Of a DNA stretch of 37,481 nucleotides, positions 15,605 through 17,201 are shown one piece after another (positions within the stretch are counted from its first letter, which is position 1; each line of letters opens with the position of its first letter). Source of the DNA: a virus; IMG/VR virus record IMGVR_UViG_3300037963_001699, positions 1-37,481 of that record; one strand, 5' to 3'. A program made the translations under genes and the position numbers. The notes beneath the pieces are model-generated. The model was not told where the DNA came from and did no database searches. It was given only the letters and a program-made list of their open reading frames with translations.

Positions 15605-15910
15605 ATGTTAGGGACACATAAAACAACAACAACAAGAACAAGTAACGGAGTATTAATTGTTACTTATCAAAATACCGCAGTTGTAGAAGTGCATAATAAT
15701 CAGCACGTAATATTAAATAATGGTGGTTGGTATACACCTACAACAAAAAGAAGAATGAATCAAGCAAGCGACCAATACAGATTAAATTTCCATGTATATC
15801 AAAAGAATGGTGAATGGTTTGTTAAGACACCAACACAGACCGCACAATATACTAATGGAATAATAATCAATTTAAAAGATGGCACGACTTCTGCGGGAGT
15901 TAATCAATAG
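15605..15910 (+). CDS. Conserved phage protein, 101 aa
   Basis: AAGGAG lies six bases before the ATG. The sequence GVLIVTYQNTAVVEV, then VILNNGGWYTPTTKRRMNQAS, FHVYQKNGEWFV and a final GIIINL strand, follows a widespread phage hypothetical family with signature LN.GGW.T.TTK.RMNQ. It is beta-rich and soluble, with no known biochemistry. A strong terminator follows 33 nt after its stop, making this and the zinc-finger gene a two-gene unit separate from the late operon. Confidence 0.75.
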   Translation: MLGTHKTTTTRTSNGVLIVTYQNTAVVEVHNNQHVILNNGGWYTPTTKRRMNQASDQYRLNFHVYQKNGEWFVKTPTQTAQYTNGIIINLKDGTTSAGVNQ

Positions 15911-15943
15911 CACACTAGCCCACACAAAAACCCGCAAATAAGA

Positions 15944-15977
15944 AAGCCCCGCAATAATGGCGGGGCTTCTCTTTTTT
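15944..15977 (+). terminator. Strong intrinsic terminator
   Basis: AAGCCCCGC (15944-15952) and GCGGGGCTT (15960-15968) pair perfectly over a 7-nt loop, followed by CTCTTTTTT. It ends the short rightward unit and insulates the late operon leader. Confidence 0.93.
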
Positions 15978-15985
15978 CGTAAATG

Positions 15986-16016
15986 TTCATAAAAATTAGT
16001 AAATATTATAATATTT
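15986..16016 (+). promoter_or_regulatory. Candidate promoter with palindrome before the late operon
   Basis: A perfect TATAAT lies at 16007-16012, with TTCATA (15986-15991) 15 bases before it as a weak -35. The -10 sits inside a perfect 16-bp palindrome (16001-16016), which a dimeric regulator could occupy. Placed right after the terminator, it would start a leader of about 430 nt running through the G-rich element and RNA structures into terS. The short spacer lowers confidence. Confidence 0.4.
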
Positions 16017-16042
16017 TATGGAATTTTCAACCTAATCGGCAA

Positions 16043-16078
16043 GGGTATGGGGACAATGCATGGGGGGGTACGTTGCAT
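16043..16078 (+). other. G-rich element with possible G-quadruplex
   Basis: GGG (16043), GGGG (16049) and a run of seven Gs (16062-16068) occur within 26 nt of AT-rich DNA; the last run can supply two tracts, so four are available. ATGCA (16056-16060) and TGCAT (16074-16078) would place the seven Gs in a hairpin loop. It could be a packaging, pausing or structural signal. Confidence 0.4.
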
Positions 16079-16173
16079 AAAAAACACTCACACACATTCT
16101 AATACTATTTTTCAAAGTTTACTATTTTTTTCTACTATATACTATTTGTTTATAGTTCCTTTGGTGAGATTTT

Positions 16174-16383
16174 GGATAGAGACCATCTATTCCCCTACAC
16201 AGAAGTGCAGGAGGATAGTCTCATTGTTCAAGTTCCTTCGGAGCCGACTTACTTGATAGGACAATCGTTTCTGTTACTGGCTCAATTGTCTTCGACTTGC
16301 CTTTGGCTATGTAACTCATTCCCCTTCTAGTAGCCAATTTGTAGTTGCTGTATCCTAGAAGTGTTTAACCAACCAATACAGCA
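16174..16383 (+). ncRNA. Candidate structured RNA: consecutive stem-loops with kissing loops
   Basis: Six hairpins follow one another: 16174-16192 (7 bp); 16194-16211 (CCTACAC/GTGCAGG, AGAA loop, one mismatch); 16228-16256 (TCAAGT/ACTTGA); 16258-16292 (AGGACAAT/ATTGTCTT); 16303-16337 (TTGGCTA/TAGCCAA); 16346-16383 (TGCTGTAT/ATACAGCA). Loops 5 and 6 carry perfectly complementary CTTCTAG (16324-16330) and CTAGAAG (16355-16361); loops 4 and 5 carry GTTAC (16273-16277) and GTAAC (16311-16315). G:U pairs in stems 1 and 4 favour the plus strand, though stem 2 would be better on minus. GC is about 41% by hand count, above flanking genes. No convincing coding frame lies here. The rest of the 15978-16445 gap holds the promoter candidate, G-rich element and an AT-rich stretch. 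Confidence 0.6.
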
Positions 16384-16414
16384 TAGTAATGTTAAAAAAA
16401 ATAAATTAGTAATG
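16384..16414 (+). repeat. TAGTAATG direct repeat before terS
   Basis: TAGTAATG occurs at 16384-16391 and 16407-16414, 23 bp apart, about two helical turns. It could bind a protein such as the small terminase, or be chance in AT-rich DNA. Confidence 0.25.
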
Positions 16415-16445
16415 CAATAAATATTTATTGAATGTATATTATTTT

Positions 16446-17201
16446 ATGGAAATCAAAACTATAAAAAGCATAGAACACAGATTATATGATAATTATAATG
16501 AGTTTAAAGCTTTTGAGGGTGATTTACCAGTAAGACAGGATTGGCGCAAGGCCAATGTCAATGATTGGACATATACAGATGACAAGCATATTGTTCAAAT
16601 CTTAAAAGTTTTTTACATAACTAACCCATCTAACGATAAAAAAAAGAAATGTGTACGTACAGTGTGCGGAAGTTTTGTTTGTAATCAGAAAAATCGCAAA
16701 ATGTTAGGCGAAAATGGTGTTGCGCAAAACATTTACACGTTTTCTGGTAGTTATGACACGATAAAAGAAGTTCGTTCTAAGAAAACTTCGTCTAAAAAGC
16801 TGTTATTTGCAAAATATGTAGCTTCTGGCATGCAAATGGAAGATGCTTATAAGATTGTATATCCAAATGCAAACAAAGAGCGATATATTCGTAATGCGGC
16901 TAACAAATTATTACAACAAAAAAAGGTAATGGAAATGGTAAAAGAAGAAATTGCACTAATTTTAAAAGAAGAAGGTGTAACTCCTGAGTATATTATTCAA
17001 AAATACAAAGATATTGCTGATGTTTCAGAAAGAGACCAAGATAGGCTTAGAAGTCTAGATGCTTTAGCTAAAATGTCAGGATTATTTGAAACAGAAAAGA
17101 AAAAAGAAGAATTAACTGTATGGGCTGGATTTACACCTGAACAACTGGAGGCTGTTAAAAATGGACAAACAAAGTTACTTGCACATAAAGAAAAAGAGTG
17201 A
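16446..17201 (+). CDS. terS: Terminase small subunit (TerS)-like DNA-binding protein
   Basis: I start at ATG 16446 (251 aa); a TTG at 16428 would add six residues, and neither has a clear ribosome site. Residues about 116-165, KKLLFAKYVASGMQMEDAYK and the following YPNANKERYIRNAANKLLQQ, form the helical DNA-recognition region typical of small terminases. A beta-rich N-terminal domain of about 105 residues (VRTVCGSFVCNQ) precedes it, and a C-terminal helical region may form the oligomer. TerS binds the packaging site and loads TerL, located 2 kb downstream. It opens the late operon. Confidence 0.65.
   Translation: MEIKTIKSIEHRLYDNYNEFKAFEGDLPVRQDWRKANVNDWTYTDDKHIVQILKVFYITNPSNDKKKKCVRTVCGSFVCNQKNRKMLGENGVAQNIYTFSGSYDTIKEVRSKKTSSKKLLFAKYVASGMQMEDAYKIVYPNANKERYIRNAANKLLQQKKVMEMVKEEIALILKEEGVTPEYIIQKYKDIADVSERDQDRLRSLDALAKMSGLFETEKKKEELTVWAGFTPEQLEAVKNGQTKLLAHKEKE

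Follow-up and report, generated by a model that had tools for sequence, protein, structure and literature searches.

A new family of phage-borne RNAs with hairpins apparently locked by a pseudoknot and a chain of kissing loops

The window, an IMG/VR virus record analysed over its whole length of 37,481 bp, carries at positions 16154–16383 of its plus strand a sequence that, judging from comparisons among relatives, encodes a structured non-coding RNA belonging to a new phage-borne family. On the same evidence, an H-type pseudoknot and two kissing loops joined in a chain appear to lock together three neighbouring hairpins (hairpins 4, 5 and 6). We regard it as virtually certain that the RNA is real and functional: many distantly related phages retain it, with matched changes on the two sides of its loop-loop contacts, and it must therefore serve some purpose. 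The RNA is not tied to terminase. The family is uncatalogued and has very strong evolutionary support. Its carriers, phages that are uncultured and probably marine, have proteins that often differ beyond recognition, and the same loop-loop contacts are kept even where, in some of them, hardly a base is still the same.

The window contains genes for a P22-type portal, an SU10-type capsid and TerL, with the early genes on the minus strand and the late genes on the plus strand. The RNA element sits between a strong bidirectional intrinsic terminator (15944–15968, plus strand), which separates the RNA and the late genes from the preceding gene, and the terminase small subunit gene terS (phrog_51; 16446–17201, plus strand), which starts about 61 nt 3′ of the RNA core. 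It heads 21 kb of co-directional late genes. There is no terminator between the RNA core and terS in the window, and only weak terminator-like sites, none of them strong, occur inside the late operon. The GC content of the element is 0.42 compared with about 0.3 in its surroundings, in agreement with the local rise described in an earlier note on this DNA. The same note saw no convincing gene here, and a reading frame is indeed open across the region in only 4 of 63 relatives, so the element is non-coding. Directly 5′ of the terminator lies a gene with a Kyano_Gp96/phrog_554 domain (15605–15910), homologues of which are found at the same place in several relatives. Immediately 5′ of terS, at 16400–16448, is TGTATATTATTTTATGG, which is kept across the clade; it may resemble a promoter or serve as an AT-rich element for the start of translation.

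The earlier note had described six hairpins extending over 16174–16383. The structured RNA itself stands, with a start about 20 nt further upstream, at a direct repeat beginning at 16154. Copy A of this repeat (AGTTCCTTTGG, 16154–16164; all coordinates of the RNA refer to the plus strand) lies near the presumed 5′ end and is followed by the block D1 (GGATAGAG, 16174–16181). Hairpin 1 (P1) takes a different form from the TAGA/TCTA pairing proposed at 16178–16190: GAGAC (16179–16183) pairs with GTCTC (16218–16222), and inside it CTAT (16187–16190) pairs with ATAG (16215–16218), giving strands at 16179–16190 and 16215–16222. A conserved CCCC (16192–16195) directly follows the 5′ strand. Copy B of the repeat (AGTTCCTTCGG, 16231–16241) has a C where copy A has a T. 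Hairpin 1, flanked by the two copies of this exact and co-varying repeat, stands apart from hairpins 4–6. Of the other stems in the note, 4, 5 and 6 were upheld by the swap tests described below, while stems 2 and 3 were not individually supported.

Stem 4 is predicted to form between AGGACAAT (16258–16265), which contains the block D2, and ATTGTCTT (16285–16292). Its loop holds two elements: GTTAC (16273–16277), which would kiss GTAAC (16311–16315) in loop 5 to give kissing loop A, and GGC (16279–16281), which would pair with GCC (16299–16301) in the linker before stem 5 to give the pseudoknot PK3, a contact that the first reading had missed. Stem 5 consists of TTGGCT (16303–16308) and AGCCAA (16332–16337) and encloses the near-invariant motif CCCCTTNNAGT (16321–16331). 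Within this motif lies CTTCTAG (16324–16330), the 5′ partner of kissing loop B; its 3′ partner, CTAGAAG (16355–16361), is in loop 6, which is closed by TGCTGTAT (16346–16353) and ATACAGCA (16376–16383) as stem 6. Loop 6 also carries the conserved unpaired motif TNNARCCAAMC (16364–16374). Both loop-loop complementarities had been pointed out beforehand; they are where they were said to be, and they covary.

In one clade (L097, L105, L112, L113 and L117), the loop of a seventh hairpin downstream is complementary to this conserved motif of loop 6, and some matched changes are seen on the two sides (AACCAAATC with GATTTGGTT in L112; AACCAACA with TGTTGGTT in L117). This putative third kiss is less firmly shown, because swaps within a small clade do not always separate own from foreign partners.

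To assess the structure as a whole, we used an alignment of 43 sequences (A1) and counted over the five helices of the pseudoknotted structure, which comprise 27 pairs. The proposed structure paired 88.0% of cells, compared to 66.0 ± 0.8% after shuffling, and the covariation score was 0.553 compared to 0.166, with none of 500 shuffles as high. When the partners were slid along the alignment, at most 45% of cells were paired. Since a helix search within each family can flatter itself, we added a swap test, in which the best helix of each family was compared with helices whose partners had been exchanged among 22 non-redundant families. The Z values were 8.6 for kissing loop A, 5.8 for PK3, 8.9 for stem 5, 10.2 for stem 6 and 7.1 for kissing loop B, and for each of these all 10,000 permutations fell short of the value observed. 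Stem 4 gave a Z of 6.3, with no more than 1 of 10,000 permutations as good, and P1 a Z of 5.9, with 1 of 10,000. An alternative stem, P2, was not significant (Z 0.9) and was rejected.

The changes underlying these values are extensive. Kissing loop A is represented by 19 distinct helices among the 22 families and PK3 by 18; for kissing loop A, GTTAC/GTAAC in the window becomes GTAAC/GTTAC in L031, ATAGC/GCTAT in L032, GCAC/GTGC in L035, TCTGGA/TCCAGA in L113 and TTCGGA/TCCGAA in L117. Homologues with compensatory changes, which the earlier note had asked for, are thus decisively present. The covariation signal would be identical for kissing within one molecule and between two.

Folding energy alone was uninformative. 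The minimum free energy of the element is −50.3 kcal/mol (z −0.91), and 38 of 200 shuffled sequences were as good, a result that the note would have counted against the RNA. An unremarkable energy can arise because the energy model ignores pseudoknots on which an RNA may rely. Taken at face value, it would suit an explanation with no functional RNA at all, in which a pac site, an origin or a protein-binding array is conserved as DNA and its inverted repeats merely resemble hairpins; the exact direct repeats could then be DNA sites, and nowhere but in the repeats' own DNA is their full complement found. However, contacts that covary between unpaired loops, both the kissing loops and the pseudoknot, make sense only in single-stranded RNA (or single-stranded DNA), and we consider conserved DNA a most improbable explanation.

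In the direct repeat, copy B follows copy A by about 77 nt, and the two match over about 10–17 nt in 22 of 22 families with a sequence specific to each family (Z 12.4). The C in copy B where copy A has U is found in most of these families. In most genomes tested, A and B are the sole two full copies on that strand; the L108 genome has one additional exact match on the opposite strand, and the L111 genome, queried with the repeat of L107, has no exact match. A complementary partner was sought within the RNA and elsewhere in the phage genomes, and none was found at a consistent place. The similarity between D1 and D2, the latter at 16259 after copy B, constitutes a shorter second repeat and is also significant (Z 4.9). 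We dropped a boxA-like reading of A and B, which by eye fits only a few families. In some early-type phages (L148/L149, L166/L167 and L158/L159), TTATAAAT occurs about twice as often as in mononucleotide shuffles.

Direct repeats that co-vary with no visible partner present a specific and testable puzzle. It is conceivable, although we think it rather unlikely, that they mark a new class of phage RNA machine in which the two copies allow two segments of one RNA to compete for a common nucleic-acid partner or to succeed each other on it. This partner might be a host RNA, the DNA template or a second copy of the RNA, and the chained kissing loops would provide a rigid scaffold holding the invariant binding motifs. 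We know of no described counterpart of such a mechanism.

The family was traced from relatives of TerS in IMG/VR, which have a strikingly conserved segment 5′ of terS. A motif pattern retrieved 57 contigs, and with two looser patterns the total rose to 110 loci, which have 64 distinct cores and lie almost without exception on IMG/VR phage contigs. The first pattern had no match in 84,980 cellular species genomes, and the wider pattern had one, in a phage-like contig binned in a MAG. Cultured phages gave no match to the RNA at the DNA level, and the cultured relatives of the carrier phages gave remote protein matches only. Of 28 records searched with model R1, 27 have one confident copy each, and no convincing second copy was found in full contigs. 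A weak second match in the contig of L078 (L145, G009:35762–35891, minus strand; E 0.004) is not convincing.

The covariance-model search proposed in the earlier note gave no Rfam 15 match in the window, and none that was plausible at E values up to 10 in 15900–16500; 12 divergent loci likewise gave no match. No family reached the gathering threshold, among them ROOL, GOLLD, pRNA, EAR, IMES and HEARO where these are modelled, so the RNA is uncatalogued. Together with the strong covariation, this sustains the claim of a novel structured RNA with two kissing loops. Our search for an earlier description covered the open-access literature, with subscription papers outside it, and found none. The novelty concerns the sequence family: phage RNAs with kissing loops are already known, and the function may prove to be a known one.

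The genes that follow the RNA differ between clades. In the window's clade, the RNA ends a constant 54–64 nt before terS, and the same gap is found in a second terS-linked group (L078, L096 and L116), the TerL of which is about 32% identical to that of the window's clade. In contrast to these two groups, more than half of the divergent families have the RNA upstream of an early or replication operon rather than of a terminase gene (L088, L093, L095, L097–L099, L101, L105, L107–L109, L111–L113, L115 and L117). Here the next genes encode XRE/Cro-like, Sak- or Erf-type annealing, ParB-like or sigma-like proteins, the packaging genes are kilobases from the RNA, and its neighbours are recombination and regulatory genes.

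This independence from terminase argues against two of the roles suggested in the earlier note, a packaging RNA and a TerS-specific switch. A role analogous to that of phi29 pRNA would accord with the kissing loops, which recall the loop-loop contacts of pRNA rings, and with the packaging genes adjacent to the RNA in the window. However, the linkage to a packaging ATPase or terminase that characterises pRNA, although found in the window and in two phage groups in which the RNA adjoins terS, is absent from most divergent families. Moreover, the window phage, unlike phi29, has an ordinary TerS/TerL terminase, no Rfam model including that of pRNA matches, and L037, a terS relative, lacks the RNA over its whole contig when searched with model R1. 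We therefore judge a packaging RNA to be very unlikely.

A gene-specific leader, acting as a riboswitch or feedback leader on the first gene downstream at the level of translation or termination, would accord with the position of the RNA about 61 nt from terS, at a spacing that stays constant in the terS-linked clades, and the D1/D2 repeat hints at competing pairings. Against this, the gene that comes next is not always the same (it may be terS, XRE/Cro-like, Sak-like or another), from which it follows that the role is not gene-specific; there is also no terminator and no evident pairing with the start region of terS, and the alternative pairing P2 was not significant. Such a leader is improbable. 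Of the late-operon leader switch put forward earlier, the part specific to terS is thus weakened, while a late-operon leader may exist in the window's own clade, where the gap to terS is constant and contains no terminator.

The earlier note also drew attention to ATTCCCC, which does occur at both 16189 and 16318, and suggested that ATTCCCCT pairs with the upstream G-tracts. This pairing was not borne out: the G-tract persists in L037, whose whole contig lacks the RNA, and divergent clades have no G-tract in the upstream sequence shown, yet keep both CCCC motifs. The G-tract (GGGGGGG) is itself conserved in the terS-linked clade, where it lies upstream of the RNA at 16040–16125 together with the block CACACACATTCTAATACTATTTTTCAAAGTTT. 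The region, which recurs partly in L037, is possibly a late promoter, an origin or a packaging signal.

Two broader explanations of the RNA fit the evidence about equally well, and each is a tentative proposal to which we give somewhat less than an even chance. In the first, which is our choice of the two, the RNA is an element at the head of an operon that acts in cis on transcription independently of the genes that follow. It would be co-transcribed with the downstream operon, forming the 5′ end portion of a long phage transcript (from the late operon here, and in other clades from an operon for early functions or replication), and would fold co-transcriptionally. Its invariant unpaired CCCCUU..AGU and ARCCAAMC motifs would then bind the transcription machinery, and elongation would continue through the operon whatever genes follow, as with HK022 put and EAR. 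These antitermination RNAs lie 5′ of co-directional genes of any identity and have hairpins with conserved unpaired bases; that of EAR contains a pseudoknot.

The family RNA resembles them in lying 5′ of a co-directional operon, usually close upstream, with gene identity irrelevant; by a crude gene caller, 51 of 56 loci have the next gene downstream in the orientation of the RNA, and the RNA stands at the head of long blocks of co-directional genes. As the independent placements number perhaps four, such constancy of orientation is weak evidence. The constant gap of 54–64 nt in two terS-linked groups, with TerLs that are so divergent and no terminator before terS, points in the same direction. 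Unlike put and EAR, the family RNA is larger and has a kissing-loop chain and a covarying direct repeat, and it matches none of the models in Rfam, which may or may not include one for put. Against an element of this type, the late operon of the window has no strong terminators to override, and the model leaves the covarying direct repeat without a role. Genes upstream of the RNA are also co-directional in several early-type genomes, so that ‘head of operon’ is not strict. Promoter-like boxes in this AT-rich DNA, both before the RNA and between it and the next gene, were no better than in shuffled sequence; for this reason we also dropped the RNA as a proven separate transcription unit.

In the second explanation, which we place level with the first, the RNA acts in trans as a compact particle, of RNA alone or of RNA and protein, that is released from the neighbouring mRNA or made independently of it. 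Its partner would be some factor of the host or the phage, or it would assemble with itself by way of the loop-loop contacts, in the manner of ROOL and GOLLD. Action in trans is consistent with the single confident copy in each genome, set in differing gene neighbourhoods, with the invariant unpaired motifs, which are of the kind seen in binding sites, and with the variable and long gap to the next gene in early-type clades. The constant spacing to terS, the usual position close upstream of a co-oriented gene and the lack of a terminator of its own on the 3′ side of the window core speak against it.

The kissing-loop architecture has precedents in ROOL and GOLLD, phage RNAs that oligomerise through kissing loops (PMC12286853). 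Like these, the family RNA is phage-encoded and has pseudoknots as well as kissing loops (PMC12286853). The resemblance does not extend to size or setting: ROOL is about 660 nt and GOLLD often more than 800 nt, both typically near tRNA islands, whereas members of the present family are about 230–330 nt (about 230 nt in the window), no tRNA was found on scanning the window and neither model matches. With a compact member of ∼230 nt, probing and structure determination become far easier. To our knowledge, few phage RNAs of such complexity have been described, and ROOL and GOLLD are without an assigned function.

Some 70–180 nt 3′ of the core in the clade with the seventh hairpin (L097, L105, L112, L113 and L117), a conserved AAACAGAAT and a short palindrome (TGTTCGAACA in L113 and L117) precede an XRE/Cro-like gene and are possibly an operator.
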